A stretch of DNA of 64,000 bases, taken from the NCBI GenBank assembly GCA_014381745.1, contig JACNLA010000023.1, forward strand, positions 1 to 64,000, in the 5' to 3' direction. Positions 6,599 through 53,893 of the stretch are shown here, in pieces; position 1 is the stretch's first letter, and each line of letters opens with the position of its first letter. Source of the DNA: Actinomycetota bacterium (GTDB lineage: Bacteria; Actinomycetota; Acidimicrobiia; Acidimicrobiales; MedAcidi-G1). The position numbers and the translations under genes are program-made. Below the pieces are notes generated by a model. The model saw only the letters and a program-made list of their open reading frames with translations, was not told the origin of the DNA and did no database searches.

Positions 6599-6613
6599 TC
6601 TCCCCTGGTTCGG

Positions 6614-23764: not shown

Positions 23765-23800
23765 GGCATTCAACCTGTGCGCCACCGTTGAGTTAACGCG

Positions 23801-24052
23801 TCACCCAGCATTCAGCTGAAGCGAGACCCGCGTGGCTCCGTTACCAACCGCTGCCCGGAGAACCTCGTCGACTGTAGAAAGGACCACATCAGATTCGCCG
23901 CAGACAGATGTGCCGAATGGTCCGATTTCCACCGCCAGGCCAGCCGATTCCGCGACCTCTATGGCAGCCAGAACATGAGGGCCTGGATCGCCCTCGACAA
24001 ATGGCTCAATCGTGAACTCGGCGGTTATCTGCACCTGACCATCATGCCCCAC
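23801..24052 (-). CDS. Thiamine-binding-like small protein (MTH1187/YkoF-type)
   Basis: An 83-residue ferredoxin-fold protein of the MTH1187/YqgV family. ITAEFTIEPFVEGDPGPHVLAAIEVAESAGL and EIGPFGTSVCGESDVVL are characteristic: two alternate beta-strands and a G-P-x-x-T segment. Family members bind thiamine or related pyrimidines. It lies directly behind the creatininase gene (25-base gap) on the same strand. A GTG at VQITAEF is an alternative start. Salvage or sensing of a pyrimidine is inferred. Confidence 0.65.
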   Translation of the reverse strand: MGHDGQVQITAEFTIEPFVEGDPGPHVLAAIEVAESAGLAVEIGPFGTSVCGESDVVLSTVDEVLRAAVGNGATRVSLQLNAG

Positions 24053-24077
24053 ACGGAGCTGTTGTGCGAAGGGTCTC

Positions 24078-30779: not shown

Positions 30780-31166
30780 TCAGGCGACAGCCACCACCGC
30801 AACCTCGACCTTCCAGGCAGGCTGCGCCAACTCAGGTACGTAGACAAGCGTCGAGGCCACCAGGTTTCCCAACAGCGCATTGTCACGAGCGGCCATAACC
30901 GCTCCAATCTCCTCGCCGGAGACCACATAGGTGATGACCGAAACGACATCTTCGAAACCCATCGAGGCCTCTTCAAGAATCGCTTCAATATTGGACCACA
31001 CCGTGGTGGCCTGACCGGCAACGTCTACGCACACGGAACCATCGGGTTCGATGGGTACCACCCCGGATGTGTGGAGAATCCGATCGGCGTGTACAGACAT
31101 CACAGCATGGGCGTAGTTGGCAGCGGGTGGGGCAATTCCGTCCGGACTGATTCGTTCAGGCCCCAT
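30780..31166 (-). CDS. RidA/RutC-family enamine/imine deaminase
   Basis: A 128-residue YjgF/RidA protein. [44 protein letters not shown] and [26 protein letters not shown] follow the family pattern, although the usual C-terminal catalytic-site Arg segment is replaced by STLVYV. RidA proteins hydrolyse reactive enamines or aminoacrylate-type intermediates, and RutC does so in pyrimidine catabolism. ATG at 31166 is used. It is divergent from an F420-type LLM gene across 58 bases with mirror-image -10 elements, reminiscent of a rut-like pairing. Confidence 0.82.
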
Positions 31167-31174
31167 GCAGAAGG

Positions 31175-31216
31175 ACGCTAGCCGGATGAAGCCGGAGAAG
31201 ACCGCCGGGCTAGCGT
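31175..31216. promoter_or_regulatory. Mirror-image divergent leaderless promoters (ridA / LLM)
   Basis: ACGCTAGCC (31175-31183) and GGCTAGCGT (31208-31216) are perfect inverted copies. Read outward, each gives GGCTAGCGT followed by exactly 8 bases and then ATG, so TAGCGT fits a TANNNT -10 box for leaderless mRNAs in both directions. The 9-bp identity may also make it an operator. Confidence 0.5.
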
Positions 31217-31224
31217 TGCCGACC

Positions 31225-32250
31225 ATGACCTCCAGAATCGCCCTCTACCTCCAGGACAAACACCCGATCCCATATGAGTTGGAGATGGCCCGTTACGCCG
31301 AGGAACGGGGAATCACCGAAATCTGGCAGGCCGACACCAGGCTGGCCCGAGACTGTGTGGTGATGATGAGTGCCCTGCTGGCCGAAACCAACACTGTCCG
31401 CGTCGGATCCGGAGTACTCCCGATCTGGACCAGGAACCCGGCGATCATCGCCGCCACGTGGAGCACGATGTGGGAGCTGGCCGGACCGGCCGCCGACGGG
31501 ACCAGCCGGGTAATGCTGGGCCTTGGTGCGTGGTGGGAACCAATCACGTCCAGAGTAGGCGAGAACCGGCGCCGGCCCCTGAAGGCCATGCGCGAGAACA
31601 TCGAGTCGATTCGCCAACTCTTCACGATGGAAGAGGTCAGCTACACGGGCGAGTTCGTGAACCTGGACAGGGTGAGCCTGGACGTGGCATACGGCGATGT
31701 CGGACCTCGCGACATTCCGATCTACCTGGGTGCCACTGGCCCGAAGATGCTGGAGTTGGCTGGCGAGATTTGTGACGGCGTCGTCCTCAACTACGTGGTC
31801 ACGCCCGACTACATCCGCGAGGCGGTCGCACGCGTCGAGGTCGGAGCAGAGAGGGCCGGCCGGTCCCTGGACGACGTCGACCGTCCCGAACTGCTCGTCT
31901 GCTCGCTCTCCGATGATGACCCGGATGAGGCGGTCCGGACTGGCAAGTCACTTGTCGCCTACTACCTCGGCACGGAGCCACACATCATGGAAGCCAGCGG
32001 GGCAGACCCCGAACTGGTGGACCGCGTCAAGGAGGTGGTCGGCTGGCCTGCCACCGAGGCCGACTACCGACGGGCCGCCGACCTCATCCCCGACGATCTG
32101 GCCCGCTCCCTCATGGCGGTCGGTACCGCAACCCAATGTCGTGACACGGTGGCGGAGTACGTGGACGCTGGGGTCACCTGCCCGGTCCTCTACCCGCTCA
32201 TGGACGACATGGTTCCAGTGATCGACGCCTTCTCCGCCTGGAGCCCGTGA
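31225..32250 (+). CDS. F420-type LLM oxidoreductase
   Basis: A 341-residue TIM-barrel oxidoreductase of the methylene-H4MPT reductase-like (F420) branch. The N-terminus is [20 protein letters not shown], followed by [37 protein letters not shown] is the F420-family strand and loop, and [25 protein letters not shown] is the conserved later barrel part. It is paralogous over its whole length to the LLM gene at 43382-44383. It is coupled by a 4-base overlap to the following amidohydrolase. It probably reduces or opens a heterocycle. The substrate is unknown. Confidence 0.8.
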
Positions 32251-33614
32251 TCGCCACCACGCTGATAACGGGAGGTGCCGTCGTAACCGTTGACGACGAG
32301 GGTCATGTTCTGGACCCGGGCTGGGTCCTCGTCAACAACGACCTGATCGCCGAGACCGGTACAGGGGATCCCCCGGCCGAAGCCCGCCGATCAGCCGAGT
32401 TGGTCCTGGATGTATCGGGCAGTGCGGTAATGCCAGGCATGGTCAACGGCCACACCCATCTATTCCAGACCCTCTTCAGGGGCCTTGCCGACGACAAGCC
32501 GCTACTGGAGTGGCTACGGGACTGCATCTGGCCAGGGGCGACCGAGTTGGATGCCGAGGCCGCGCACGCAGCGGCAACCCTCGGCATGGTCGAAAACCTC
32601 CGCGGTGGAGCCACGTCGATCGTCGACCACCAATACATCCACGGCGCACCGGCCATCGACGACGCCGTCTGCCGCGCCGCAGCCGAAACCGGAGTGAGGT
32701 TCGTCCTTGCCAGCGGATGGGCGGACCGCAACTACCACCCGCCCCTCACCGAATCCGCCGACACCGTTATCGACCGGATACGACCAGTACGTGAGACATG
32801 GCACGGCGCAGCGAATGGAAGGATCAGCGTCGGGCTGGCCCCGCTCATTCCATGGGGCTGCTCCGACGAGGCAGTCGAACTAACGGTGTCGGAGTGCAGG
32901 TCATGGGGTGGATCCACTCATCTCCACTGCGCCGAGACAGCCGTCGAGGTCGAGATGAACCTGGAGGAACGGGGCCAACGACATGTTCCGTGGCTGGATT
33001 CCCTGGGGGTGCTCGGTCCCGATCTCCAGTTGGCACACTCGGTTTGGCTGGACGATTCGGAACTGGACCTTATTGCACAGAGCGGTGCGATGGTTGTCCA
33101 CTGTCCGGTCTCAAACATGTATCTGGCATCCGGTGTCGCCAGGATCCGGGAGATGCTGGACATGGGCATCACCGTCGCCCTGGCCACCGACGGGCCGGGC
33201 AGCAACAACCGCCAGGACATGTTCGAGGCGTGCAAGGCCACGGTGCTTCTCCAGAAGGTGGACCGCCTCGACGCCACGGTTCTACAACCGGAGGAGGTCC
33301 TGGAAATGGCCTGCAGGGGCGGGGCATCGGCAATGGGTAGACCAGATGATCTGGGCTCCATTCAGCCCGGGATGAAGGCCGATCTCGTTGTCGTGGACCT
33401 GACCACCCCATTCTCAGCCCCGGTCCACAGGGTCCCATCGGCCCTCGTCTACTGCGCGTCACCCCGCGACGTACTCCACGTCATGGTCGACGGAAACCTC
33501 CTTATGCGGGACCGCACGATGACGACCATCAACGAGCATGAAGCCATCGCCCGGGCTACTGACTCGGCACGTCGGGTCTTTGGCCGTGCAGGTATTACCA
33601 CGAGGCTCACCTGA
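32247..33614 (+). CDS. Amidohydrolase (guanine/8-oxoguanine/triazine deaminase type)
   Basis: A 455-residue TrzA/AtzA-type amidohydrolase, expected to deaminate an aromatic N-heterocycle. Metal motifs are [18 protein letters not shown] near residue 60 (H-x-H), [12 protein letters not shown] near residue 220 (third His and catalytic Glu), [14 protein letters not shown] (fourth His) and [17 protein letters not shown] (Asp). GTG overlaps the LLM stop (GTGA). It is the middle of an operon-like run leading to ygfM-xdhD. The substrate is uncertain between guanine-like, pterin-like and triazine-like rings. Confidence 0.82.
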
Positions 33615-33756
33615 GGCAAGATCCTCCCACTCCGGCCCTTGAGTGAACCGGGCCTGGTGCTATCGTCGAAGACACAAATCGGATCATCTGCTCGACCGCC
33701 TGGCGTATCCACGGGAGAGCCCACAACAACCCGCTGGGAAGAAGGGTTGGAGGGCA

Positions 33757-34497
33757 ATGCCGCGAGCAACCAGTTACCACCGGCCAACAACCATCGAAGG
33801 TGCCGTCACTCTCCTGGCCGCACAGGACCACATGGCCCTCGCCGGTGGAACCATCCTGAACGCCGATGACGACCCCACGCCCGTGGCCATGGTCGATCTT
33901 CAGGGCCTGGGTTTGACGGACATGGAGTCAGGTGCCGATCGGATCCGGTTGGGCGCAATGGTCACCCTCGACAACCTGAAGTCCGATGACCGTGTGCCCG
34001 ATAGCGTGCGCGATGCCGCACGGGCAGAGTTGCCGAGCACCCTGAGAACCCTCGCCACGGTCGGCGGAACAGTCGCAGTTGGCGACCCCGACAGCGTTCT
34101 GCTGGCCGCCCTGCTGGTCCATGCCGCAGAGGTCCACGTAGCTGGACCCGACGGAACCGGCGGCGCACCGCTGGCCAACGTACTCAGGTCCAACGGCCCG
34201 TGTCACGGCCACCTGATCACCGCTGTCTCCCTGACAACCGGAGGAACCACCGTGTGTGAGTCCGTCGGCCGCACTCCTGCCGATACGCCGATCGTCTCAG
34301 CGACCGGGCGGTACCTTGACGGCGTGACCACGGTCGCCCTCACCGGGGTGGCATCCACTCCGGTGCTGATCGATCCAGGGGACCCGACGTCGGGTCTCGA
34401 ACCGCTGGGCGACTTCCGGGGCAGTGCCGACTATCGCCTGCACCTGGCCTCGGTGTTGACCGATCGGATTCTCGCCTCGCTGAAGGACGCTTCCTGA
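33757..34497 (+). CDS. ygfM: YgfM-like FAD-type subunit of XdhD system
   Basis: A 246-residue CoxM/FAD-domain protein, shorter than a normal hydroxylase FAD subunit (~285, as at 53031). The order of segments matches E. coli YgfM as I remember it: YHRPTTIEGAVTLLA, ALAGGTILNAD, RIRLGAMVTLDNLK, TLATVGGTVAVGDPDSVLLAALL. The usual FAD-binding GGN-I/x-A-x-A-x-P-x-x-D loop is altered (GGTVAVGDPDSV), so FAD binding may be weakened. ATG follows TTGGAGGGCA. The stop shares a base with the xdhD ATG. It probably partners with XdhD. Confidence 0.75.
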   Translation: MPRATSYHRPTTIEGAVTLLAAQDHMALAGGTILNADDDPTPVAMVDLQGLGLTDMESGADRIRLGAMVTLDNLKSDDRVPDSVRDAARAELPSTLRTLATVGGTVAVGDPDSVLLAALLVHAAEVHVAGPDGTGGAPLANVLRSNGPCHGHLITAVSLTTGGTTVCESVGRTPADTPIVSATGRYLDGVTTVALTGVASTPVLIDPGDPTSGLEPLGDFRGSADYRLHLASVLTDRILASLKDAS

Positions 34498-37418
34498 TGG
34501 AGGTCTCCATCCGCCTGAACGGCAACAACCAGACCTTCGAGTGCGAGGTCCACGACACTCTCCTGACCCTGCTCCGCCGCGAAGGCATGGCCAGCGTCAG
34601 GTTCGGCTCAACCTCCGGCGAGACAGGCGCGGCAGCCATTCTGATCGACGGAAAGCTCGCCAGCAGCGACGTCGTCCTGGCCGCACAGGCCGACGAACAC
34701 GAGGTGACGACCCTGGAGTCGCTCAACACCGAACGCGGCCTCCATCCCCTGCAGGATGCGTTCACGGCCACGGGTGCGATGCAGTCCGGCTACTCCGTCG
34801 GCGCCATGATTCTTGGCACCCTCGCCCTCCTCGCGCACGACCCAGACCCGTCCGAGGCCGACATCCGGGACATGCTCTCGGGAATCCTCGACCGCGAAAC
34901 GGCATACGTAAAGCCCGTTGCCGCCATACGCCGCGCTGCCGCTCTGATGCGCGGCGACGACGTCGAGGCTTTCGAGCCCCTGATGCTCGAGCCCATGACC
35001 GACGGCGTGAACGCTGTCGAGGTAACCGAAGACGACCCGCCTCCGAACGCCCCACCGGCGGTACCACGTGTAGTGACCTCGCCCGATGTCCCCGAGATGG
35101 AGGTGGTGGGCCGCCCTGAGGTCAAGGTCGACGCAGTGCGTCTCGTCAAGGGCAACCCTGCATTTACAGCAGACTTTGAAATGCGCGACCTGCTTCACGC
35201 CAAGGTCCTGCGGAGTCCTCACGCCCATGCTCGAATCGTCAGCATTGATGACTCGGCCGCACGCTCACTGCCGGGGGTTCATGCCGTCATCCACCACGGC
35301 AATACAGCCCGCGTGAAATACGCCTCGGGCGGACAGTCGTACCCAAACCCCAAGCCCCACGATCAGGTCAGCTTTGACGACGTGGTCCGCCACGTGGGCG
35401 ACAGGGTTGCTGCCGTGGCAGCCGAAACCCCTGAGATAGCTGCCGAGGCCTGCAGGCTCATAGAGGTCACCTACGAGATCCTCCCGGCGGTATTCGACGA
35501 GCTCGAAACCCGCCTTGACGGAGCTCCGATCATTCATCCCGAGGAAGACACCATCGACATCGTCGACCGTGAGCACAACGTCGTCCACCGGATGCACGCT
35601 CACCGCGGCGACGTAGAGGTTGCGCTAAATAATGCCGACCACGTCTACGAGCAGACCTTCCGCGTCCACCAGGTTCAGCAGTGCCCGATCGAACCGCACA
35701 TCTCCGTCGCCTGGCTGGACTCAGACGAACGCTTGGTCGTCCGCACCGCAACGCAGGTTCCGTTCCACACCCGCCGCATGTTGGCACCCCTCATCGACAT
35801 GGAGGTCAAGGACATTCGCGTCATCAAGCCGCGCATCGGCGGCGGCTTTGGCGCCAAGCAGGAGATGCTGATCGAGGACATCGCCGCACACCTGGCAATC
35901 GCCACTCACCGCCCCGTTCAGTTGGAGTTGACCAGAGAGGAGGAGTTCTTCGCCAGCCGCACCAGGCACCCGCAGACCATCACCTACCGGACCGGCGTCG
36001 ACTCCGACGGAACGCTCGTAGCCCAGGACATGACCCTCGTGGGCAACACAGGCCCCTACGGAGCCCACGGCCTGACCGTCCAGATCGTCACCGGCCTACG
36101 CGGTCTGACCTCCTACAACTGCGACAACAAGCAGTTCAACTGCGATGTCGTCTACACCAATATCCCCGTTCCTGGCGCCTACCGAGGCTACGGAGCACCC
36201 CAGGCCCTTTTCGCCCTGGAGTCACACATGGAAGACATCGCCGACGATCTTGGGATTGACCCCATCGGTTTTCGCCGTCAGAACTGGGTGAAGGTCGGCG
36301 ACGAGATGAACATCGCCCCACACCTGGGAGAGGGTGGAGCCAGCGACGAGGAGCTGGACGAGTACCCGGTGGTGGAGTCGAACGGCATCGAGGAATGCGT
36401 GGCCCAGGGGATGCGAGCGATCTCGTGGCACCGACGCAGCGACCCCGACTGGCGGGCCCCGGCCGACCGGCCACACATCAGGCGCGGCCTCGGCTTCGCC
36501 TTCTGCATGCACGGAACAGCCATTCCCTTCCTGGACATGGGCGGTGCCAGCATCAAGTTGAACGACGACGGGTCGTTCAACCTGCTTGTAGGTGCCACCG
36601 ACCTCGGGACCGGGGCCGACACCGTCCTTGCCCAGATAGCGGCCGAGGTCCTGGGAGTTCGCCTCGAGGACATCATCATCTACTCCTCCGACACGGACAT
36701 GACGCCTTTCGACACCGGTGCGTACGCCTCCAGCACCACCTACATCTCCGGCACCGCGGTGCAAAAGGCCTCTCGGGTGGTTGCCACGCGGCTCCGGGAG
36801 AGGGCCGCCATGCTCCTCGGAGTCGACGCTCCTGAGTCGATCCAACTGCGGGACCGGAGTGCGTGGACTCCCGACGGACGCTCAGTCACCCTTGAGGAAG
36901 TGGCCCTCGACTCTCTGCACATCAACGAGCAGGAGCAGATCATGGGAACTGCCTCACACGTCTCCCCCGACAGCCCTCCGCCGTTCGCCGCGCAGTTCGT
37001 CGAGACCGAGGTCGATATCCAGACCGGCCAGGTCACCGTCATCTCGATGGTCATGGCCGTCGACTGTGGTGTGACCATCAACCCCATAACCGCCAGCGGC
37101 CAGGTCGAGGGCGGCATGCTGCAGGCCCTCGGGTACGCACACTGTGAGGAGATCGTCCTCGACGATGACGGCAAGATGGTAAACCCGGCATTTGGCCCGT
37201 ACCGGATCTACACCGCAGACGAGATGCCCCACACCGAGGTGTTCCTCGTGCAGACCATGGAGGCGACCGGGCCCTTCGGCGCAAAGGCCGTTGCCGAAAT
37301 TCCCAAGGACGGTGTAGCACCGGCTCTCCGGAACGCCATCGCCAACGCCACCGGTACCCGGATCTACGACCTGCCCTTCACGCCTGAACGGGTCCACCGG
37401 GCACTCAACAACGTCTGA
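34497..37418 (+). CDS. xdhD: XdhD-like molybdenum hydroxylase with cysteine-free Fe-S domain
   Basis: A 973-residue fusion of a ferredoxin/[2Fe-2S]-type domain (1-~150) and a molybdopterin domain (~200-973). The expected eight cluster cysteines are replaced: by alignment to the paralogue at 45461, S38, T43, A46, D58, S97, S100, D132 and E134. The molybdenum half is intact: LRSPHAHARI, RIGGGFGAKQEM, GAYRGYGAPQALFALE, and the active-site Glu in GPFGAKAVAEIP. E. coli XdhD, from memory, shows the same loss, so this is a conserved trait and not decay. In E. coli it is tied to selenium-dependent purine or selenate chemistry. It is coupled to ygfM and followed 2 bases later by an SsnA-like gene. Confidence 0.85.
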   Translation: MEVSIRLNGNNQTFECEVHDTLLTLLRREGMASVRFGSTSGETGAAAILIDGKLASSDVVLAAQADEHEVTTLESLNTERGLHPLQDAFTATGAMQSGYSVGAMILGTLALLAHDPDPSEADIRDMLSGILDRETAYVKPVAAIRRAAALMRGDDVEAFEPLMLEPMTDGVNAVEVTEDDPPPNAPPAVPRVVTSPDVPEMEVVGRPEVKVDAVRLVKGNPAFTADFEMRDLLHAKVLRSPHAHARIVSIDDSAARSLPGVHAVIHHGNTARVKYASGGQSYPNPKPHDQVSFDDVVRHVGDRVAAVAAETPEIAAEACRLIEVTYEILPAVFDELETRLDGAPIIHPEEDTIDIVDREHNVVHRMHAHRGDVEVALNNADHVYEQTFRVHQVQQCPIEPHISVAWLDSDERLVVRTATQVPFHTRRMLAPLIDMEVKDIRVIKPRIGGGFGAKQEMLIEDIAAHLAIATHRPVQLELTREEEFFASRTRHPQTITYRTGVDSDGTLVAQDMTLVGNTGPYGAHGLTVQIVTGLRGLTSYNCDNKQFNCDVVYTNIPVPGAYRGYGAPQALFALESHMEDIADDLGIDPIGFRRQNWVKVGDEMNIAPHLGEGGASDEELDEYPVVESNGIEECVAQGMRAISWHRRSDPDWRAPADRPHIRRGLGFAFCMHGTAIPFLDMGGASIKLNDDGSFNLLVGATDLGTGADTVLAQIAAEVLGVRLEDIIIYSSDTDMTPFDTGAYASSTTYISGTAVQKASRVVATRLRERAAMLLGVDAPESIQLRDRSAWTPDGRSVTLEEVALDSLHINEQEQIMGTASHVSPDSPPPFAAQFVETEVDIQTGQVTVISMVMAVDCGVTINPITASGQVEGGMLQALGYAHCEEIVLDDDGKMVNPAFGPYRIYTADEMPHTEVFLVQTMEATGPFGAKAVAEIPKDGVAPALRNAIANATGTRIYDLPFTPERVHRALNNV

Positions 37419-37420: not shown

Positions 37421-38746
37421 ATGGGCGCCGAACAGGGCCTCCTCATCCAGCCCGACTGGCTGGTAACCGATGCCCGCACCCCACCCAGACCCGGCTGGGG
37501 TGTCCGGGTTGTAGCTGATCTGATCGACGCCGTCGGACCCAACTCCGACCTGGCCGGAGCACATCCCTCAGATGATGTCGTAGCTGCCCCCGGTCGGATC
37601 CTCATGCCCGGATTCGTGAACTCCCACGTCCACATGTACGGGGTTCTTGCCCACGGGATTCCCACAGAGTCGGCTCCAGCCGGCTTCTGGCCATTCCTCG
37701 AGGACTTCTGGTGGCCGCAGGTCGAGGACCGCCTCGACCACGAGATGATCCGGGCAGCAGCCGACTGGGTCTGCACCGAGATGCTGCTGTCTGGAACCAC
37801 GACCTTCCTCGACATCTTGGAGGCCCCTGCGACGCTGCCGGACGCCCTGCTCATGGAAAAAGAGATCGTGGACGAACACGGGCTGAGGGGAATCCTGAGC
37901 TTTGAGGCCACCGAAAGGTCGGGGCCGGAAATTGGGCAGAGAGGCCTGCAGGAGAACCTGTCGATGATCGACGCCTGCGGAGACGGTGACCTGACCTCGG
38001 GGATGATGTGCACCCACACCACGTTCACCTGCTCCGACGACTTCATCAGACAGGCGTACGAGTTGGCGGCCGCCAACGACGTCCTGCTCCACGCCCACTG
38101 CAACGAGGGTGTCCACGAGGGATCTTGGTGCCTTGAACACAACGGACGTAGAACCGTCGAGCACTACGACCACCTCGGCGTGGCAGGCCCCCGCTTCCTT
38201 GCCTCCCAGTGCGTCCACCTCTCACCCGACGAGTTCAACCTTGTCGTGGACCGGGGTATCAGGTGCACCCATATGCCTCTGGCGAACTGCGAGGTCGGAG
38301 GAGGCATCGCCCCGGTCCCGGAGTTGTTGGAGGCCGGCGTGACCGTGGGTCTCGGGTCTGACGGCTACGTGAACGACATCTACGAGGTCATGCGGGGTGC
38401 GTTCCTGATCCACAAGGCCAGGCTTCAAGACCCCGGGGTCATGCCGGCCCCGGAGGTACTGGCCATGGCCACGGAGACAGGTGCACGGGCGCTGGGCCTC
38501 GACATGGTCGGTCGCCTCGAACCCGGATGGTCGGCAGATCTGCAGTTAATCGATGCAGCCTTCCCGACACCGGTAAACGAGGGCAACCTGATCGGCCAGA
38601 TCATCCTGTCCAGGAGCGGACACCATGTCGATTCCGTGATGGTCGCCGGTTCCTGGAGGGTGAGGAACAAAGAGGTGATCGGCTCAGACCCGGAGAGGCA
38701 GTCGGCGCGGCTGCACGAACAGGCCACCCGACTCTGGGGTTCTTGA
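37421..38746 (+). CDS. SsnA-like amidohydrolase (full length)
   Basis: A 441-residue amidohydrolase, about the length of E. coli SsnA. RILMPGFVNSHVHMYGVLAHGI near residue 62 gives H-x-H. FLEDFWWPQVEDRLDHEMI resembles the SsnA segment with WWRLDRAL, and TTTFLDILEAP its conserved turn. Later ligands are in LLHAHCNEGVHE, QCVHLSPDE and GLGSDGYVNDIYE. Family members deaminate N-heterocycles. It stands between xdhD and xdhC in the same operon and may supply or clear the XdhD substrate. It is distinct from the closer, shortened SsnA at 44424. Confidence 0.75.
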   Translation: MGAEQGLLIQPDWLVTDARTPPRPGWGVRVVADLIDAVGPNSDLAGAHPSDDVVAAPGRILMPGFVNSHVHMYGVLAHGIPTESAPAGFWPFLEDFWWPQVEDRLDHEMIRAAADWVCTEMLLSGTTTFLDILEAPATLPDALLMEKEIVDEHGLRGILSFEATERSGPEIGQRGLQENLSMIDACGDGDLTSGMMCTHTTFTCSDDFIRQAYELAAANDVLLHAHCNEGVHEGSWCLEHNGRRTVEHYDHLGVAGPRFLASQCVHLSPDEFNLVVDRGIRCTHMPLANCEVGGGIAPVPELLEAGVTVGLGSDGYVNDIYEVMRGAFLIHKARLQDPGVMPAPEVLAMATETGARALGLDMVGRLEPGWSADLQLIDAAFPTPVNEGNLIGQIILSRSGHHVDSVMVAGSWRVRNKEVIGSDPERQSARLHEQATRLWGS

Positions 38747-39570
38747 TGGCTACGGCATACGGGGATCGGCTAGTCAGGACCCTGCCCGGGCGTACCGCCG
38801 AGGCTCACATCCTGAACGACCTTGTCGATCTGCTCGCCAAGGGCCGGTCCGCTGTGCTTGCCACCGTGATAAGCACCGACAGGTCCGTACCCCGACACGC
38901 CGGCTCCAAGATGCTCGTCACCGCCGATGGCCTACGTATCGGCTCGGTTGGCGGAGGCGAGATGGAGGCACGCGTGGTCGCAGAGACAGATGCCTGTCTG
39001 GCAGAAGGAACGCCACGTCTGCTGGACTACCAATTGGTCGACCCCGGCAACGGCGACCCCGGCGTGTGCGGTGGCCGGGCCACAATTCTCCTGGAGCCAC
39101 ATATGCCACCTTCCACGATCCTGGTTATCGGATACGGCCACATTGGCCACGCTGTGACGGACCTTGCCCACTGGCTTGGCTACCGGGTGGTTGCGACCGA
39201 CGACCGCTCCGGCACCCTGGACGACAGCTCCGCTGCGGATGTAGCAGTGGTTGGCCCGGTTTCTGTGGCACTCGAACAGGTCGAGTTGACGCCGAGAGAC
39301 CATGCGGTGGTCGTCACCCGAAACACCGACCTTGACGTGGAGAGCATCCAGTGCCTTTTGGCCACAAGCGTCGGCTCAATCGGCGTCATGGGAAGCGCCC
39401 GGCGCTGGGAGACCACATGCAGCCGGCTCCTGGACCTCGGCGCCACGACAGCTGACCTGGAACGGGTCACCTCGCCGATCGGCCTGGACCTGGGTGCCGA
39501 GAACCCGGAGGAGATCGCCGTCTCTGTAATGGCCCAGATCGTTGCCCGTGACCGCAGCTCGGCGGGCTGA
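38746..39570 (+). CDS. XdhC/CoxI-type molybdenum hydroxylase maturation protein
   Basis: A 274-residue XdhC-family protein that handles and sulfurates (or here perhaps selenates) the molybdenum cofactor before insertion. The N-terminal XdhC domain has STDRSVPRHAGSKMLV and IGSVGGGEMEARV. The C-terminal Rossmann domain has ILVIGYGHIGHAVTDLAHWLGY and GVMGSARRW, ending GLDLGAENPEEIAVSVMAQI. ATG overlaps the amidohydrolase stop. In E. coli this module is the N-terminal half of YqeB. Here it is a separate gene 3 bases before the other half. Confidence 0.85.
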   Translation: MATAYGDRLVRTLPGRTAEAHILNDLVDLLAKGRSAVLATVISTDRSVPRHAGSKMLVTADGLRIGSVGGGEMEARVVAETDACLAEGTPRLLDYQLVDPGNGDPGVCGGRATILLEPHMPPSTILVIGYGHIGHAVTDLAHWLGYRVVATDDRSGTLDDSSAADVAVVGPVSVALEQVELTPRDHAVVVTRNTDLDVESIQCLLATSVGSIGVMGSARRWETTCSRLLDLGATTADLERVTSPIGLDLGAENPEEIAVSVMAQIVARDRSSAG

Positions 39571-39573: not shown

Positions 39574-40377
39574 TTGTTGTTCGAAGACCATCTCTGCCTG
39601 CTCCGTGGCGGCGGCGACCTCGGCACCGGAGCAGCGCTTCGCCTCCACCGGGCGGGCTTTCCAGTTGCCGTTTGTGAGCTGGCCAGCCCGCTGGCCGTAC
39701 GACGTACGGTGGCGCTGTCAACGGCCGTCACCGACGGCGAGCTCACGATCGAGGACATGCGTGCACGCCGGGTTGACCTGACGACGGACCTTGTGTCGAT
39801 AGCAGCTACAGGGGTGGTACCGGTGCTGGTCAGCCCTGGACTTCCAGACATCCCGCTGTCTGTCGTGGTCGATTCCAGGCTTGCCAAGCAAGCCCTCGAC
39901 ACCACCATCAACGACGCTTCGCTCGTGGTCGCCCTGGGGCCGGGCTTTGTGGCCGGAGTCGACTGCCACGCCGTTGTGGAAACGCTCCGCGGACCCCGCC
40001 TGGGACGAGTCATATGGGACGGACCCGCAGCAGCCGACACCGGGGTTCCCGGCGAGGTCGGCGGCAGAAGCACCGACCGACTGCTGAGATCTCCCGCAGA
40101 TGGGGAGGTGACATGGAACTACGGCATCGGTGATCTCGTAGAGGCCGACGCCTTGCTCGGGGTGGTATCAGGGGTTGAAATCCGAAGTTCCGTGGCAGGA
40201 ACCATCCGTGGTCTGATCGTGAACGGTGCGACGGTCACGACCGGACTGAAGGTCGGCGACGTGGATCCCAGGAGAACAGGAGAAGGCGGCGGAGTTGACG
40301 AGGTCTCAGACAAGGCCCTCTCGGTTGGAGGCGGTGTGGTCGAGGCGGTCCTGACATGGCTGAACCGGAACGGCTGA
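39574..40377 (+). CDS. yqeB: YqeB-family selenium-dependent molybdenum hydroxylase accessory protein
   Basis: A 267-residue protein matching the C-terminal half of E. coli YqeB / EF2563, a marker of selenium-dependent molybdenum hydroxylase maturation. Key segments are LLRGGGDLGTGAALRLHRAGF, VALGPGFVAGVDCHAVVET, TGVPGEVGGRSTDRLLRSPADG, LKVGDVDPR and VSDKALSVGGGVVEA. No ATG is available. TTG at 39574 or 39577 follows GAGGG, so initiation is probably weak and coupled to xdhC. Its presence predicts labile selenium in at least one hydroxylase here. SelD was not found in the window. Confidence 0.85.
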   Translation: MLFEDHLCLLRGGGDLGTGAALRLHRAGFPVAVCELASPLAVRRTVALSTAVTDGELTIEDMRARRVDLTTDLVSIAATGVVPVLVSPGLPDIPLSVVVDSRLAKQALDTTINDASLVVALGPGFVAGVDCHAVVETLRGPRLGRVIWDGPAAADTGVPGEVGGRSTDRLLRSPADGEVTWNYGIGDLVEADALLGVVSGVEIRSSVAGTIRGLIVNGATVTTGLKVGDVDPRRTGEGGGVDEVSDKALSVGGGVVEAVLTWLNRNG

Positions 40378-40382
40378 GTCCC

Positions 40383-41351
40383 ATGATCAGAGCCAGCCTG
40401 AACCTGATCCCGGAAGCACCGGTGGACAAGATGGTGGACCTTGCGGTTGCCGCCGAGGAGCTGGGTTTCAGACGCTGCTGGGTCTACGACGAGGGCCTGG
40501 CCACCCGTGACGTGTACGTAACGATGACCGCGATCCTGCTCGCCACGGACGGGCTCGAGGTGGGTCCCGGCATCACCAACGCCTACACCCGCCATCCGGG
40601 ACAGACCGCTGCTGCAATAGCCAGCCTCGACGAGATGTCGGGTGGTAGGGCATTTCTGGGACTGGGAGCCGGAGGCAGCCTCACCCTGGACCCGCTGGCC
40701 ATCCCGAGGTACCGACCGCTCGAGACCGTGCGGCAGGCGATAGTCGCCTGCCGGGGCCTGTTCGGAGGCGAAACCGTAGACATGGAAGGTCCGGGTTTCT
40801 CGCTCCGGTCCGCCCGCCTCGACTACAGCCGCCCAGACATCCAGATCTGGCTGGCTGGGAGGGGCCCCAAGATGTTGGATCTGGCCGGATCAGTCGCCGA
40901 TGGGGTCCTGTTGGACTTCATCTACAAACCGTCCCTCGGCGCCTACGTGGAGCGGGTCAGAAGAGGGGCAGAAGCGACCGGGAACCAGCCCGAGATCTGC
41001 TACTCGACAATGATCGTTACCGACGAGAGGGCCCTTGAAGCTGTAAGGCCCCACATGACCTACCGCCTGGTCGACTCGCCGCCCGATGTCAGGGAGGCCT
41101 TGGGAATTTCGGACTCCGACGTCGCCGCCATCAGGTCGGCGATGGCCGATGGGCTCAAAGCAGCTGCCCGGCTGGTTCCAGACGAATGGGTCCTACCTTT
41201 TGTTGTAAGCGGCACGATCGAGGAATGCTCAGCCGAACTCCACAACCTCATGGAGACACACGGGATCAGTGAGTTCAAGATTCCGGTCTACGACGTGGAC
41301 CACGGTCGAGAACTGCTCGAGGTGACCGCAACGGTGCTGGAGCCCCGATGA
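40383..41351 (+). CDS. F420-type LLM oxidoreductase (methylene-H4MPT reductase-like)
   Basis: A 322-residue LLM protein. VGPGITNAYTRHPGQTAAAIASLDEMSGGRAFLGLGAG is very like the F420-binding segment of methylenetetrahydromethanopterin reductase, and IQIWLAGRGPKMLDLAGSVADGVLLD is the later barrel signature. The ATG at 40383 (MIRASLNLIP) is preferred to one 9 codons earlier that overlaps yqeB. It stands directly after yqeB in the same operon, so a redox role linked to XdhD or its product is inferred. Confidence 0.78.
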   Translation: MIRASLNLIPEAPVDKMVDLAVAAEELGFRRCWVYDEGLATRDVYVTMTAILLATDGLEVGPGITNAYTRHPGQTAAAIASLDEMSGGRAFLGLGAGGSLTLDPLAIPRYRPLETVRQAIVACRGLFGGETVDMEGPGFSLRSARLDYSRPDIQIWLAGRGPKMLDLAGSVADGVLLDFIYKPSLGAYVERVRRGAEATGNQPEICYSTMIVTDERALEAVRPHMTYRLVDSPPDVREALGISDSDVAAIRSAMADGLKAAARLVPDEWVLPFVVSGTIEECSAELHNLMETHGISEFKIPVYDVDHGRELLEVTATVLEPR

Positions 41352-42069: not shown

Positions 42070-43368
42070 TCAGGCGTGCTCCCACAGGCGCCGTGATCTG
42101 GCAGCCAGATCCCTGTGGGCGGCTGCCAGGTCGATTCCGACTACCTCGCCGTCGGTCACCACAGGGTTGCCACCGACGAGCACGTGGCGGGCGCGGCGAT
42201 CGGGTCCCAGAACGAGGCCGGCCAACGGGTCGGCGATGTCACCGAGGTCGTCGCCGGGCCAGACGACCATGTCAGCCCGCTGACCCGGCTCTATCAGGCC
42301 GGTGTCGTCGAGGCCGAGGCACCCGGCACCTCCCCTGGTGGCCATGTCCACGACATCGACCGGCATCAGCGCATCCGGGCGCAGCTCGCGCAGCCTCGCC
42401 GTGTAGAGCGCCTGGCGGAGCTCCGGAAAGAGCCCGCCCACCTCGTTTGAGGCGACGCCGTCCACCCCGAGACCGACGGGACAACCGGCAGCCCTCAGGT
42501 CGGTGACCCTGCACATGCCTGCCGCTATCCGGGCATTCGATGACGGGCAGTGGGCAATGCCAGTACCTGCCGCTCCGAGCACGCCCATCTCGTCGTCGTC
42601 GATGTGGATGCCGTGCGCCAGCCAGACGTCGTCGCCGACCCAACCCCACTCCTCGAGCATCTCCACCGGTCGTCGACCGAACCGTTCGAGGCAGTGGGCC
42701 TGCTCCTCGACCGTCTCACACAGATGTGTGTGCAGGCGCAGACCGTGACGTCGAGCCAACTCGGCTGACTGGACCATCAGGTCGGTGGTTACGGAGAAGG
42801 GGCTGCATGGTGCCACCACCACGTGGACCATCTCGGCGTCGTGGTGGCGGGCGATGACCGACTCGGTCGACGCCAGGATGGCGTCGATGTCCTCGACCAC
42901 GTGGTCCGGCGGCAGGCCCCCGCGGCTCTCACCCAGGTCCATCGAACCCCGGGAGAGGTGCAGCCGGATGCCGACCGAGTGGGCGGCGTCGACGATTGCA
43001 TCAAACACCTCGTCGTCGCCCCCGGGGACCAGATAGTGGTGGTCTGATGCAGTCGTGCACCCCGTGGCGGCCAACTCCCCCAGGCCGACCATGGCAGCCG
43101 CCCTGACGTCGTCAACCGACAACCGGCCCCACACGGGGTAGAGGTGGGTCAGCCAGTCAAAGAGGTTGCAGCCGTCGGCCCTGCCGCGGGTCATCCACTG
43201 GTAAAGGTGATGGTGCGTGTTAATGAGCCCTGCTGTGACGATGTCACCATCACAGCGCAGGACCTCGTCTCCGGGCTGGGGCTCCACCGACCCGACCGCC
43301 GTGATGCGACCGCCTTCAACGGCAATGTCACCCGGGTGGCGGGCACCTCTGACTACCAGGCGGGACAT
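42070..43368 (-). CDS. 8-oxoguanine deaminase-like amidohydrolase
   Basis: A 432-residue amidohydrolase. VTAGLINTHHHLYQWMTRG near residue 46 with NLFDWLTHLYPVWGRLS is the signature of the 8-oxoguanine/guanine deaminase subgroup. CTTASDHHYLVPGG, LHTHLCETVEEQ (His and Glu), WLAHGIHIDDDE and GLGVDGVASNE supply the remaining metal and catalytic residues. It would turn 8-oxoguanine into urate, the substrate level at which the neighbouring molybdenum hydroxylases operate. It is last in the long minus-strand operon, 13 bases after an LLM gene, and convergent with the VanX-like gene. Confidence 0.82.
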   Translation of the reverse strand: MSRLVVRGARHPGDIAVEGGRITAVGSVEPQPGDEVLRCDGDIVTAGLINTHHHLYQWMTRGRADGCNLFDWLTHLYPVWGRLSVDDVRAAAMVGLGELAATGCTTASDHHYLVPGGDDEVFDAIVDAAHSVGIRLHLSRGSMDLGESRGGLPPDHVVEDIDAILASTESVIARHHDAEMVHVVVAPCSPFSVTTDLMVQSAELARRHGLRLHTHLCETVEEQAHCLERFGRRPVEMLEEWGWVGDDVWLAHGIHIDDDEMGVLGAAGTGIAHCPSSNARIAAGMCRVTDLRAAGCPVGLGVDGVASNEVGGLFPELRQALYTARLRELRPDALMPVDVVDMATRGGAGCLGLDDTGLIEPGQRADMVVWPGDDLGDIADPLAGLVLGPDRRARHVLVGGNPVVTDGEVVGIDLAAAHRDLAARSRRLWEHA

Positions 43369-43381
43369 GTGGAGAATCCTC

Positions 43382-44383
43382 TCACGGGGTCCAGTCAGCG
43401 AACGTGTCGACCATCAACTTCACGTCCGGGCCGAGCGGGTAGAGGATTGGACAGGTGCAACCATCTGCCATGTACTGGGCCACCTTCTCCCTGCATTCGT
43501 CCGGGGTGCCGGCTGCACAGATCATCTGCACGATGTCATCGGGCACCAGCTTCGATGCTGCCTCAACCTGCTCATGCGTGGCGGGCCACGTCAGGATCTT
43601 CCCAACCTCCTCAAGCAGCGACTCGGGGACGCCCGAAGCCTTCATGATGTGCGGCTGCTGACCCAGGTACTGGGTGACCATGAGGCGAGCTCCGTCAAGG
43701 GCCTCGGCGCGTGTTTCGGCAACCGAACAGACCACAAGTTGCGGCCGGTCCAGGTCGTCGACCGACCGGCCCGCCCGAGCGGCACCGATCTCAAGGTGCT
43801 CCATCGCCTGCTTGTTGTATCCAGGCGAGACCAGGTAGTTCAGGACAACCCCGTCAGCGATCTCGCCTGTCAACTCCATCATCTTCATCCCGGTCGCACC
43901 GATGTAGATGGGAACCTCCTTGGGGCGCCGCTCCTGGTAGACGTAGTCCAGCTCAACCCCGTCGAGGTGCACGTAGTCGCCATCGAACGTGACCGTCTCA
44001 TCTGCCAGCAGGGCCCGCACCGTCGTTACAACCTCTCGCATGACACCGAGGGGCCGCCTGCGGTTGATCCCGACCTTGGTAGCCAGCGGATCCCACCAGG
44101 CGCCGATGCCCAGAATCATCCTGCCGGGGGCCAGGTCGTCGAGCGTCGAGAAGGTGGATGCAAGGCGTGCCGGGTTGCGTGTCCAGCAGTCGACGACCCC
44201 CGAGCCGATCTTGATCGTGTCCGTGCAGGCCCCGAAGGCCGCCATCGGCACGACGGCATCGCGGACAAGGCGCGAGTCAGCCTGCCAAACGGCCTCGAAG
44301 CCACGCGATTCCGCGTATCGGGCGTGCTCGATGGCCTCTGTGATCGTGTGGGCATCCTGCAGGTAGATGGCGAGCCTCGTCAT
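43382..44383 (-). CDS. F420-type LLM oxidoreductase (paralogue)
   Basis: A 333-residue LLM protein closely paralogous to the gene at 31225. It shares [83 protein letters not shown] and [31 protein letters not shown] at 44383 is chosen because a TCCCCG/GAGGAGG stretch precedes it, and longer frames are unconserved. As at 31225, it sits next to an amidohydrolase, so the two pairs look like duplicated deaminase/reductase modules. Confidence 0.8.
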
Positions 44384-44423
44384 CGGGGAACCTCCTCGGC
44401 GATAGCGGTCAACATGTGCTCTC

Positions 44424-45464
44424 TCACATTTCCTCCAGTCGGGCGTGCAGTCGGACAGCCTCCTCAGCGGCCCTCGCACGGATCTCGTCTGCATCGACAC
44501 GGGTAGCTGAACCATCGGCCCAGACCACTCGGCCATCCACCTCGACCTGTAGGGGGCTGACACCCGGCGAGAAGGCCAGGTGCCACGGATCCATCGGGTC
44601 GTGGCTCCATGTGACCTGATCCCCGAGTGCCTCCGGGAAGAGATCCCAGCCGGTGGCCAGATAAGACCAGGCAGCCTCAGGCGAGGCTGTCACGTCATCT
44701 TCACGGTGGCGCACGTAGGCGACCCGGAACTCGTCGAGCATGTCGGCACCGATGCCGTCGGAGCCGAGAGCCACCGGGTTTGTGAAGCGGGCGGGGCGTG
44801 AGTATCCGACGGAGTTGTTCATGTTGGACCTGGGGTTGTGCACGATTGTGCCGGTCAGGCCGTGGTCATCGGCCAGGTGTACGCCGTGTACGAGCAACCA
44901 GTCGTCCGCGGTCAGGTTGCGGAGCCGGTCCGCTGCACCGGCGTCGGTCTCGCCCTCGGCCACGTGGATGTGTACGCCTACACCGAGTTCGGCAGCGAGG
45001 CCGGCTGCGGATTCGAGGGTCTCGTCGGTGCAGGTGAAGGCGGCGTGCACGCCGACCCTCCCCCGGCCGCCGGCACGCAGGTACCTCTCGTTCTCGGCGA
45101 GGCCCCGTCTGGCGCCCTCTGGTCCGTGGCGGTCCGTCACCCCGTACGCACAGTCGACCCTCACACCGACCTCTGCGCAGGCTTCGGCGATCACGTCCAG
45201 AGAACCCTCGATGGCCTCCGGTGACTCATGGTGGTCGATGACCGCCGTGCATCCCCGCTCAAGTGCCTCGAGGGCGCCCAGCATCGCAGACCAGCGGATG
45301 CCCTCAAGGTCAAGGGCCCTGTCGAGACGCCACCACACGAGCTCAAGGATGTCGGTGAACCCGGCCGGCGTCCTGGGTGGTGCCGGCATGCCGCGGGCCA
45401 GCGATGAGTAGAGGTGATGGTGGGCACAGACCAGGCCCGGCGTGGTGTTGGACAAGTTGCTCAT
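44424..45464 (-). CDS. ssnA: SsnA-like amidohydrolase, shortened
   Basis: A 346-residue protein strongly resembling E. coli SsnA (about 442, from memory): [71 protein letters not shown] and [15 protein letters not shown]. It lacks the N-terminal ~55-residue beta-sandwich strand block and has a shorter segment before the C-terminal [10 protein letters not shown]. The upstream bases are xdh coding, so the missing part is not frame-shifted. All metal ligands remain. It starts in the stop of the fused xdh gene (ATGA) and is probably a heterocycle deaminase. Confidence 0.75.
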
Positions 45465-48043
45465 CGGCCGTCCCACTCTGCCCAGGCTTCACGCTGGTTG
45501 GGAGAATTCATCGGGAGCTCAGCGCGCCACTCACCGTCGTGGGCGTGGAGGGCGGCTGCCACCGCTCCGGCTGTGGGAACCAGGCCGATCTCGCCGACTC
45601 CCTTGATGCCGTATGGAGAATCCGGCTGGGGTACCTCGACGAGGCGTACGTCAACAGGCGGCATGTCCTTGGGTCTGATGATTCCGAGGCTGCGAAGGGT
45701 CGTGTTGGCGGGCCTGGCGTCTGCATCTGCCGGGAAACCCTCGGTCAGGGCGTATCCGAGACCCATGTGCACGGCGCCCTCCACCTGTCCTTCGCAGAGC
45801 ATCGGGTTCACGGCCCGACCGACATCGTGTGCGGCCACGACCTGCTCCACGTCGCCGGTCTCGGGATCCAGGATCACCAGTTGTGCCGCGTATCCGAAGG
45901 TGGAGTGGATCACGGGGTGTTCGAGGCCTTCGTTCATGGAGTTTGTCCAGTCCACCCGGTACTCGCCCTCGTAGTCCACCCCGATCTGGCAACCGTCGGC
46001 GAGTGCCGCCCGGCAGGCGTCGGCCACCGACCCGGCTCCCATGAGGGTGCCGCGGCTGCCGGTCGTCTGGCCGGCACCAAGCTCACGGGTGGTGTCGACG
46101 ATTACCTCGATCAGAGCGGGATCCACGCCGAGTTCCTCGACCACCACCTGGATGGCAACCGTGTGGACTCCCTGACCCATCTCCGTCCAACAGTGCCTTA
46201 CCTCGACACCGCCGTCCTCACGAAAGCGGACCACCGCCCGTGCGATCTCCTTGAAACCGTTTCCGAGACCGGAGTTCTTGAGCCCCATGCCGAGACCGAC
46301 GGGCCTGCCGGCAGCCACGGCTGCGTCGTAGGGCTCCTTCACCTCGTCCAGGCACGCTCTGGCGCCGAGGGAGCCATCGTCCATCACCTGGCCCGGCCCC
46401 CAGACGGCCCCCGGACCCACGATGTTGCGACTGCGCATCTCCCAACCGGAGATTCCCGCCATCTGGGCGAGGCGGTCCATCACCCCCTCCATGGCGAACT
46501 GCGCCTGGTTGGCTCCAAAGCCACGGAACGCACCGCACACCGGATTGTTGGTGCGCACAGCCGTGGCCTCGACGTCGATGTTGCCGACCACATACGGGCC
46601 GCTCGCATGCCCAGCGGCGCGCTCGAGAACCTTCATGCCCACCGAGGCGTAGGGACCGGAGTCTCCGATCATGCGTACCCACAGCGCTGTCAGGTGACCG
46701 TCGGCGTCACAGCCGGCCCGGTACGCCATCCGGATCGGGTGCCTCTTCGGGTGCATGAGAAGAGACTCCTCACGGGACAGCGTGCACCGGACAGGCCGGT
46801 CAAGGAGGTGGGCTGCAAGGGCCGTCTGAGCCTGGTTGGACATGTCCTCCTTGCCCCCGAAGGCGCCGCCGTTGCTGACCAACTCGACGGTCACCATGCC
46901 GGTGTCGACTCCCAGGACGGAGGCGATCTGGTTGCGGTCGTCCCAGACACCCTGACCGCCTGAGTACACGTGGAGGCCTCCACCGTCGACCGGAACGGCG
47001 AGGGTTGACTCGGGCTCGACAAAGGCGTGCTCGATGCGCTGGGTCTGGAACACCTCGTCAACCACGTGGGCGGACTCTGCCAGGGCCGACTCGACCTCTC
47101 CTCGCGAGTAGCTGGACACGGAGAGGATGTTCCCTTCCAGCCCCCACACGGCATTCTCGTCTGATGACGCCGCCACGACCGGGTCGCTGAACACGGTCAG
47201 GGACACATATTCCACCTCTACGAGGGCGGCTGCCATCCGGGCTGTTTCCCGGTCGCCGGCTACAACGACGGCAAGTACGTCACCCAGGTAGGAGGTTCGG
47301 CCCCCCTCGGGGATGAGCACCGGCCAGTCGGTGTGAATGATGCCAACACGCAGGTCCCCGGGCACGTCTGCAGCGGTGAAGACGCCGTGGACCCCGTCGA
47401 CGGCCTCTGCAGCCGACGTGTCAATACGGCCCACGTCGGCGCGGGCGTGGTCGGCGAGATGAAGTGCTGCATGCAGCAGGCCTTCAGGAGCCATGTCGTC
47501 GATAAAGGGCCTGTCCCCGAGGCTCAGCTCTCCGGCCTGGTACTTGGTGCCGCTTGAACCGACTCCCCCACATTCCACCGTGACGGGAACTTCGCCGGCC
47601 GCCACCGACTCGACGGCGTCAAGGATCTTGATGTACCCGGTGCACCTGCAGAGGTGCCCACCCAGGTGGCGGGCTGCCTCGTCCCTCGTGAGGGCATCGC
47701 CCTTCTTGTCGATCAGCGCCTTGGCACGCATGACGATTCCCGGTGTGCAGAACCCGCACTGAAGCGCACCGTGGGCTGCAAAGGCATTCGAAAAGCGCTC
47801 CCGTTCGTTCTGATCGAGACCCTCAAGGGTGGTAACGGTGGCCCCATCGACCTTTTCCATCGAGGTCTGGCATGCAACCCGGGCCTTTCCGTCGACCAGC
47901 ACCGTGCAACAGCCGCACTGGCCCGACGGCGAGCAACCGTCCTTGGGTGACATGACCCCGAGCTCGTCGCGTAGAGCTACGAGCAGGTGGGGATGTGTGG
48001 CGCTTGCCTCGACGGTGGATCCGTTCAGGGTGAAGGTGGTCAC
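45461..48043 (-). CDS. xdh: Fused Fe-S/molybdenum xanthine dehydrogenase (selenium-dependent XDH-like)
   Basis: An 860-residue single-chain hydroxylase. The N-terminal domain keeps both [2Fe-2S] sites: DGCSPSGQCGCC with a later ARVACQ, then ALQCGFCTPGIV and HLCRCTGY. The molybdenum domain (from ~175) has SNGGAFGGKEDM, CGAFRGFGANQAQFAME and the catalytic Glu in YGIKGVGEIG. Length and fusion match selenium-dependent XDH of Enterococcus and Clostridium. No FAD domain is attached, so another flavoprotein must take the electrons. It overlaps ssnA and the carbamoylase by 4 bases each. Confidence 0.85.
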   Translation of the reverse strand: MTTFTLNGSTVEASATHPHLLVALRDELGVMSPKDGCSPSGQCGCCTVLVDGKARVACQTSMEKVDGATVTTLEGLDQNERERFSNAFAAHGALQCGFCTPGIVMRAKALIDKKGDALTRDEAARHLGGHLCRCTGYIKILDAVESVAAGEVPVTVECGGVGSSGTKYQAGELSLGDRPFIDDMAPEGLLHAALHLADHARADVGRIDTSAAEAVDGVHGVFTAADVPGDLRVGIIHTDWPVLIPEGGRTSYLGDVLAVVVAGDRETARMAAALVEVEYVSLTVFSDPVVAASSDENAVWGLEGNILSVSSYSRGEVESALAESAHVVDEVFQTQRIEHAFVEPESTLAVPVDGGGLHVYSGGQGVWDDRNQIASVLGVDTGMVTVELVSNGGAFGGKEDMSNQAQTALAAHLLDRPVRCTLSREESLLMHPKRHPIRMAYRAGCDADGHLTALWVRMIGDSGPYASVGMKVLERAAGHASGPYVVGNIDVEATAVRTNNPVCGAFRGFGANQAQFAMEGVMDRLAQMAGISGWEMRSRNIVGPGAVWGPGQVMDDGSLGARACLDEVKEPYDAAVAAGRPVGLGMGLKNSGLGNGFKEIARAVVRFREDGGVEVRHCWTEMGQGVHTVAIQVVVEELGVDPALIEVIVDTTRELGAGQTTGSRGTLMGAGSVADACRAALADGCQIGVDYEGEYRVDWTNSMNEGLEHPVIHSTFGYAAQLVILDPETGDVEQVVAAHDVGRAVNPMLCEGQVEGAVHMGLGYALTEGFPADADARPANTTLRSLGIIRPKDMPPVDVRLVEVPQPDSPYGIKGVGEIGLVPTAGAVAAALHAHDGEWRAELPMNSPNQREAWAEWDGR

Positions 48044-53888: not shown

Positions 53889-53893
53889 TCCCA

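Follow-up and report, generated by a model that had tools for sequence, protein, structure and literature searches.

Background

Classical enzymes of the xanthine oxidase (XO) family contain molybdenum (Mo), two iron-sulfur (Fe-S) clusters and flavin adenine dinucleotide (FAD), and their two [2Fe-2S] clusters lie between the flavin and the molybdenum. Here we describe an xdhD-like gene (positions 34497 to 37418, plus strand) in a 64,000-nucleotide stretch of DNA from an Actinomycetota bacterium of the class Acidimicrobiia (assembly GCA_014381745.1, contig JACNLA010000023.1, positions 1 to 64,000; hereafter the window). Judged by its sequence, the product of 973 amino acids (aa) is a fused Fe-S/Mo enzyme of the XO family, in which all eight cysteine (Cys) ligands of the two clusters have been replaced. 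Internal electron flow in this enzyme class had been called essentially undescribed in the initial annotation; in view of the classical chain of Mo, two Fe-S clusters and FAD this does not hold for the family, and it applies only to the forms without clusters.

Purified XdhD of Escherichia coli, with a co-purifying protein of about 30 kDa (putatively YgfM), converted urate to yanthine when given NADH (PMC12507026), and YgfM was described as an electron-transfer module in the commentary by Percudani (PMC12990295). XdhD of E. coli MG1655 (RefSeq NC_000913.3) retains none of the eight ligand Cys, the substitutes being D, A, D, S and S, N, S, D for the two clusters; the initial annotation had stated this loss correctly. 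Thus a purified, active and medically discussed urate reductase has lost both clusters, and in the passages of PMC12507026 and PMC12990295 that were searched YgfM is treated as its electron-transfer module, although the clusters leading from flavin to Mo cannot form. The missing clusters are not mentioned in those passages; the word "cysteine" is absent from the searched text of PMC12507026, and the Fe-S mentions displayed there concern YgfK. No report of cluster-less XO-family enzymes was found in the literature, which is weak evidence because most subscription papers lay outside the search.

The gene and its emptied Fe-S-type domain

The features of the gene were assigned as follows (residue numbers refer to the 973-aa protein).

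34497..37418, plus strand: xdhD-like gene (start ATG), fusion of a cluster-less Fe-S-type domain and a molybdopterin-binding oxidoreductase, 973 aa
34497..34946, plus strand: domain of the double [2Fe-2S] type, residues 1-150, 0 of 8 ligand Cys (assigned from Fer2_2, 4zoh_C and the alignment)
34608..34670, plus strand: site of the former distal (ferredoxin-type) cluster, ligand codons 38, 43, 46 and 58 reading S, T, A and D
34785..34898, plus strand: site of the former Mo-proximal cluster, ligand codons 97, 100, 132 and 134 reading S, S, D and E
35097..37415, plus strand: Mo-cofactor-binding part, residues 201-973, active-site residues intact
36330..36332, plus strand: Glu612, equivalent of Glu606 of E. 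coli XdhD
37296..37298, plus strand: Glu934, the catalytic Glu of the XO family

The Pfam domains Fer2_2 (E 2.5e-15), Ald_Xan_dh_C, MoCoBD_1 and MoCoBD_2 were detected in the protein, and residues 1-149 were aligned over the full length of solved Fe-S subunits of the XO family (4zoh_C, E 4.2e-24; 3hrd_D, E 1e-22), which bears out the proposal that the first ~150 residues derive from a ferredoxin-type domain. In the alignment with XdhD homologues and with the proteins encoded at 45461 and 52543 of the same window, both of which have 8 of 8 ligand Cys, every ligand position of the 973-aa protein was occupied by another residue (S38, T43, A46 and D58 at the distal cluster; S97, S100, D132 and E134 at the Mo-proximal cluster), as had been noticed at first sight. 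Substitute Cys ligands elsewhere were ruled out; Cys16 is the sole Cys in residues 1-200 and lies off every ligand position. Apart from E. coli, all eight ligand Cys are likewise missing, and replaced by near-invariant residues, in 41 fused homologues that were taken from independent genomes, and therefore the loss is due neither to chance nor to an assembly error. Of the characters of the XO family, the Mo domains, the catalytic Glu and the Mo cofactor (Moco) loop are thus present, and the eight Cys for two [2Fe-2S] clusters are absent.

Distribution and origins of the losses

Homologues were collected by similarity to the window protein, from a scan of named genomes (80 loci) and a scan of 400 Chloroflexota genomes (homologue in 76); most of the sequences come from metagenome-assembled genomes, and the counts below are of sequences and not of independent events. 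Among 120 fused Fe-S/Mo proteins, both clusters were lost in 47, the distal cluster only in 25 and the proximal cluster only in 1, and both were kept in 47. The 47 double losers comprise 42 proteins with no ligand Cys (E. coli included) and 5 with one. Twenty-four of the distal-only losers are of the type D[ST]D[GA]/CCCC, and the other, from Anaerolineae SB15 (L046), reads STAE/CCCC, the proximal cluster being intact. The reverse of this common single loss was seen in one Chloroflexota protein (L137 / L205, genome G519), in which the distal cluster is intact and the Mo-proximal one is lost (CCCC/SDSE). All 50 of the separately encoded Fe-S subunits have 8 of 8 Cys.

An apparent class with seven of eight Cys (GCCC/CCCC, 8 loci) and a five-Cys form (L136) were rejected as artefacts of alignment register or domain trimming, the raw sequences having 8 of 8. 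Ten 8/8 proteins flagged as proximal losers were likewise rejected, since the pattern spacing had been too strict and the columns read CCCC. An opposite pattern was observed in Ktedonobacter-type Chloroflexota (L081, L176-L192), whose fused relatives have 8 of 8 Cys and in some of which (e.g. L081, L176) the Mo-site motifs are degraded.

A maximum likelihood tree was reconstructed from the Mo part (58 rows, careful mode; a single gene, with a few long branches). Three changes of state at the distal cluster and three at the proximal cluster were needed on this tree, and they were read as losses because the eight-Cys state is common to the separate subunits and the outgroups. The lineages with a loss are E. 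coli (both clusters), the DSDG clade (distal), L137 (proximal) and the clade of the window protein (both); on this sequence tree the losses therefore fall in at least four lineages and are convergent. E. coli XdhD was grouped with 8/8 proteins of Spirochaetota and Cetobacterium. One of these, from Spirochaetota (L093), is 52% identical to E. coli XdhD and has homologues of ssnA, ygfK, ygeY and ygeW beside it, and the Cetobacterium gene is accompanied by ssnA, ygeY-type and FAD genes. That E. coli and the window clade share a single origin of the loss was rejected by the approximately unbiased (AU) test, in which the double losers (with L046) were constrained to one clade (p-AU 2.15e-5). L046 was placed at the base of the window clade in the maximum likelihood tree (a weak branch, 42/28) and inside the clade in a quick tree; if basal, as that weak branch has it, the distal cluster would have been the first to be lost.

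These losses, convergent and graded (distal-only, proximal-only and double) across a large family, go beyond what was noticed in the window protein itself. They form a natural series in which the relay was dismantled at the distal cluster, the proximal cluster or both, in at least four lineages, with the Mo site intact.

Molybdenum site, selection and predicted structure

The Moco loop (GGGFG) and Glu934 are present in the 973-aa protein, so the initial annotation was right that the Mo half keeps its cofactor loop and catalytic Glu. All readable cluster losers have kept three features, namely the Moco loop, the catalytic Glu (ambiguous in one of them) and the equivalent of Glu606 of E. coli XdhD, a residue proposed to orient urate (PMC12507026).

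Between the window gene and its relative L017, the ratio of nonsynonymous to synonymous substitution rates (dN/dS) was 0.092 in residues 1-150, against 0.065 in the Mo part; for other pairs, the emptied domain gave 0.06-0.15. Purifying selection acts on the emptied domain, which is maintained and not decaying. In the 41 zero-Cys proteins of the window clade, S97, D132 and E134 are invariant (41/41 each), and S38 and T43 are nearly so. The whole 973-aa protein was modelled with AlphaFold2 at a predicted local distance difference test score (pLDDT) of 83.7, mostly 77-94 in residues 1-150, and the best PDB match of the model was the fused aldehyde oxidoreductase of Desulfovibrio gigas (1sij; template modelling (TM) score 0.81/0.87). 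The emptied domain is thus predicted to keep its fold. The earlier view that the domain is kept for structure stands as far as its retention under selection and its predicted fold are concerned; a structural role is plausible. The closest sequence to the Mo domain in PDB was 4-hydroxybenzoyl-CoA reductase of Thauera (1rm6, E 1e-100).

The flavin subunit

33643..34497 (likely true start 33757), plus strand: YgfM-like FAD subunit, PF00941; its stop overlaps the start of the xdhD-like gene by one base

The YgfM-like subunit was modelled with AlphaFold2 at a pLDDT of 91.3, and its best PDB match was the FAD subunit of carbon monoxide dehydrogenase. Forty of the 42 zero-Cys loci have a YgfM-like gene immediately upstream. 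In the three genomes with the one-Cys forms L039, L041 and L049 such a gene is present but unlinked, and a standalone enzyme without FAD was rejected on this ground. The aligned FAD subunits show almost no variation in the flavin motifs GGT and TxGG; a general death of the FAD subunit is therefore not supported, the exceptions being L035, L047, L135, L167, L173 and L175.

FAD subunits with broken flavin motifs were observed next to 8/8 Mo enzymes (L047:3806-4618, L207:7235-8014, L210:7413-8201 and L175:1735-2547); at these four loci, to judge from the motifs, it is at the flavin that the wire seems to have been severed. The genome of Anaerolineae SB15 (L046) yielded no YgfM-like FAD gene. Genes of the DHO_dh fold (UacX-like?) lie directly upstream of the one-Cys xdhD-like genes at L039 (8815-9957) and L041 (8841-9917) and possibly code for a flavin mononucleotide (FMN) reductase partner; at L049, a gene of this kind (5633-6733) is located 3 kb upstream.

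Gene neighbourhood

The window genome has a size of 2.19 Mb in 44 contigs and is 95.9% complete, and the closest relative of the 973-aa protein is from an uncultured Candidatus Microthrix sp. (L017, 91%), Microthrix being a sludge bacterium. The genes around the xdhD-like gene were annotated as follows.

31117..32250, plus strand: luciferase-like monooxygenase (LLM)-class (F420-type) oxidoreductase, PF00296; upstream position conserved in several Acidimicrobiia
32247..33614, plus strand: amidohydrolase/deaminase-like protein, PF01979
37421..38746, plus strand: SsnA-like amidohydrolase (TIGR03314, 249 bits, below the cut-off of 455.5)
38527..39570 (true start probably later), plus strand: XdhC-family Moco maturation factor
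39574..40377, plus strand: YqeB, selenium-dependent Moco maturation (TIGR03309, over the cut-off)
40356..41351, plus strand: second LLM-class (F420-type) oxidoreductase of the operon
41348 (start), plus strand: M15 peptidase, the last gene named in the operon
42070..43368, minus strand: 8-oxoguanine deaminase (PRK08203, over the cut-off)
43382..44563, minus strand: LLM-class oxidoreductase
44424..45476, minus strand: SsnA-like aminohydrolase (PRK07203, 262 bits, below the cut-off of 444)

The order in the plus-strand operon is thus LLM, amidohydrolase, YgfM-like, xdhD-like, SsnA-like, XdhC-like, YqeB, LLM and M15 peptidase. The facing minus-strand genes code for 8-oxoguanine deaminase, LLM, an SsnA-like protein, a selenium-dependent xanthine dehydrogenase (XDH)-like protein, a CN hydrolase, a hydantoinase/allantoate-type amidohydrolase and a PucD-type XDH. 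This minus-strand region (42070-53915) is a dense purine-degradation block, in which the PucD-type XDH has Fe-S and FAD subunits of its own. Beside the purine block, a PnrA/Bmp-type binding protein (ATP-binding cassette (ABC) transporter of the nucleoside type) and a creatininase-family protein are encoded at 22602-24848 (minus strand).

In ssnA clusters of Chloroflexota, F420-type proteins replace YgfK, according to PMC12507026. LLM genes and SsnA-like genes (37421 and 44424) are present here, both of the latter scoring below their cut-offs, with XDH and 8-oxoguanine deaminase genes in the vicinity; the genome also encodes the F420 gene cofH. In Chloroflexota (L202, L204, L210), homologues of the minus-strand LLM protein (57-63% identical) are encoded close to ssnA and to XdhD-like genes of the cluster-bearing kind, and homologues of ygeW, ygeY, hyuA or yqeA adjoin zero-Cys genes in L030, L062 and L023. 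From its gene content, which the initial annotation did not take up, the neighbourhood is most likely a purine-degradation locus of the F420/SsnA type.

As in selenium-dependent Mo hydroxylase systems, YqeB (TIGR03309) is encoded nearby and selD is present in the genome; together with the XdhC-like genes these are indirect pointers to a sulfido or selenido ligand of the Mo. The selD gene (L217, G000:C8:12185-13108) matches its family across an in-frame TGA, and therefore SelD is probably itself a selenoprotein.

Proposed function and electron supply

The best overall explanation, to which we assign a probability of about 0.5, is that the 973-aa protein is an XdhD-type reductive dehydroxylase of oxopurines with a FAD partner, in which the emptied domain serves as a scaffold. 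Together with the YgfM-like FAD protein, whose gene is the next one upstream, the Mo enzyme would form a complex that takes an oxygen off an oxopurine; the analogy of E. coli XdhD points to the conversion of urate to 2,8-dioxopurine. The emptied domain, still folded, would sit as a scaffold between flavin subunit and Mo domain. An oxopurine, most simply urate, is our best guess for the substrate because of the gene content of the locus and the neighbours of zero-Cys homologues; the direction of the reaction and the scaffold role are likewise inferred.

Several findings weigh against this explanation. The protein scores 640 bits with TIGR03313 (E. coli-type XdhD), below the cut-off of 1101.9, and lies outside the E. 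coli XdhD clade, so the substrate can only be inferred. The equivalent of Glu612 is also found in 44 of 51 separately encoded Mo subunits of two-subunit relatives and hence is not diagnostic of urate. In the FAD subunit the Asn that usually follows TxGG is replaced, and both flavin motifs are broken at one zero-Cys locus (L035); because of this replacement and the few relatives with broken motifs, binding of FAD by the YgfM-like subunit is likely but not certain. All cofactor statements on the cluster-less members, moreover, were derived from sequence. Finally, since both [2Fe-2S] clusters are gone, the standard chain from FAD through the distal and proximal clusters to Mo does not exist. With the standard tunnelling rule and the distances between FAD, clusters and Moco that we take to apply from XO structures, direct transfer from FAD to Moco over ~26 Å was estimated at ~0.002/s when both clusters are lost, and at ~0.6 to 150 electrons/s when one is lost. 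Unless the geometry differs, the former rate seems insufficient for a catabolic enzyme; therefore either the geometry does differ, or a donor reaches Mo otherwise, or no net electrons are needed.

The electron transfer had initially been thought to be rerouted, and this is now one of three live readings. We tentatively favour, at slightly under even odds, a net reduction in which electrons enter through the FAD subunit and bypass the clusters by some other route. An external donor (reduced F420, a flavoprotein or a ferredoxin-type protein) could instead feed the Mo site directly, the FAD subunit and the emptied domain then being structural. LLM/F420-type genes flank the operon and the genome has cofH, and L035 combines the double cluster loss and the broken flavin motif with an adjacent LLM gene that is kept; however, NADH sufficed in the E. 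coli assay, several zero-Cys loci have no LLM gene in the stretch read, and we know of no donor that feeds Mo directly in the XO family. We regard such a donor as unlikely.

The third reading is a redox-neutral enzyme of the transhydroxylase or isomerase kind, in which Mo would alternate between two organic substrates, no electrons would enter or leave, and the FAD-FeS wire would be dispensable; for example, xanthine would be hydroxylated at C8 to urate, and the reduced Mo would then remove the C6 oxygen to give 2,8-dioxopurine. It accounts best for the repeated loss of the wire, at places that differ between lineages, beside a Mo site that stayed invariant, and in some relatives with 8 of 8 Cys it is the FAD motifs that are broken instead (L047, L135, L167, L173, L175). 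It fits the E. coli result with NADH least, urate and NADH being the stated components for the formation of yanthine; the assay, as described in PMC12507026, contained 10 µM enzyme and 1 mM each of urate and NADH without kinetics, so that the yanthine could have come from a slow side reaction with NADH. Also against this reading, yanthine was seen to accumulate in a delta-xdhA strain of E. coli (PMC12507026), and the flavin motifs mostly kept in zero-Cys loci suggest that FAD is still used. We consider a redox-neutral enzyme slightly less likely than a direct donor. Its boldest form, in which a lineage of the XO family abandoned electron transfer altogether, Mo exchanging a hydroxyl in a self-contained redox cycle between purine positions or substrates (e.g. 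from xanthine to 2,8-dioxopurine), and the dispensable wire was lost convergently in Acidimicrobiia/Chloroflexota and E. coli, is quite unlikely.

Two other explanations concern the emptied domain and the gene as a whole. The near-invariance of the substitutes within each clade (S, D and E in 41/41) would be expected if the domain bound another cofactor or metal through its S, T and D/E residues; the substitutes vary between clades, however (STAD/SSDE, DSDG, SDSE, and DADS/SNSD in E. coli), and form no recognised motif, which makes this very unlikely. That the gene is a decaying or inactive paralogue is highly improbable: loss of cofactor sites is common in pseudo-enzymes and two other XDH-like enzymes are encoded in the window, but the Mo site is intact and dN/dS is low in the cluster losers, maturation genes are kept in the operon, and the E. 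coli parallel is active. A pseudogene was rejected on dN/dS and the Mo site. How electrons are supplied to Mo in the cluster-less enzymes, that is, how a molybdenum hydroxylase works without its wire, is a testable question.

Comparison with known systems

The proposed dehydroxylase with its FAD partner resembles XdhD-YgfM of E. coli in the fused Fe-S-type/Mo chain, the adjacent gene for a YgfM-type FAD subunit, the absence of all eight Cys, the Glu606 equivalent and the purine-degradation locus. It differs in that the identity is 37-38%, the substitutes at the former Cys sites are others and the loss was independent; the E. coli locus has YgfK, whereas the window locus has F420-type LLM proteins instead. 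Aldehyde oxidoreductase (MOP) of D. gigas, the best fold match, shares the fused FeS-FeS-Mo chain; MOP has both [2Fe-2S] clusters and no FAD subunit, whereas the window protein has a FAD partner and no clusters. 4-Hydroxybenzoyl-CoA reductase of Thauera (1rm6), the closest Mo-domain sequence in PDB, is a member of the XO family that is physiologically reductive, but it consists of three subunits and has all the Fe-S clusters and an extra [4Fe-4S] cluster. The selenium-dependent XDH-like protein encoded at 45461 (near TIGR03311) belongs to the same family and has the same fused Fe-S/Mo architecture; it differs in having 8 of 8 Cys, no directly adjacent FAD gene and a distant Mo domain. A precedent for a [2Fe-2S] ferredoxin fold that was kept without its Cys is the N-terminal domain of proline dehydrogenase (PMC1949818), an unrelated enzyme in which the fold is not part of an electron relay inside a Mo enzyme.

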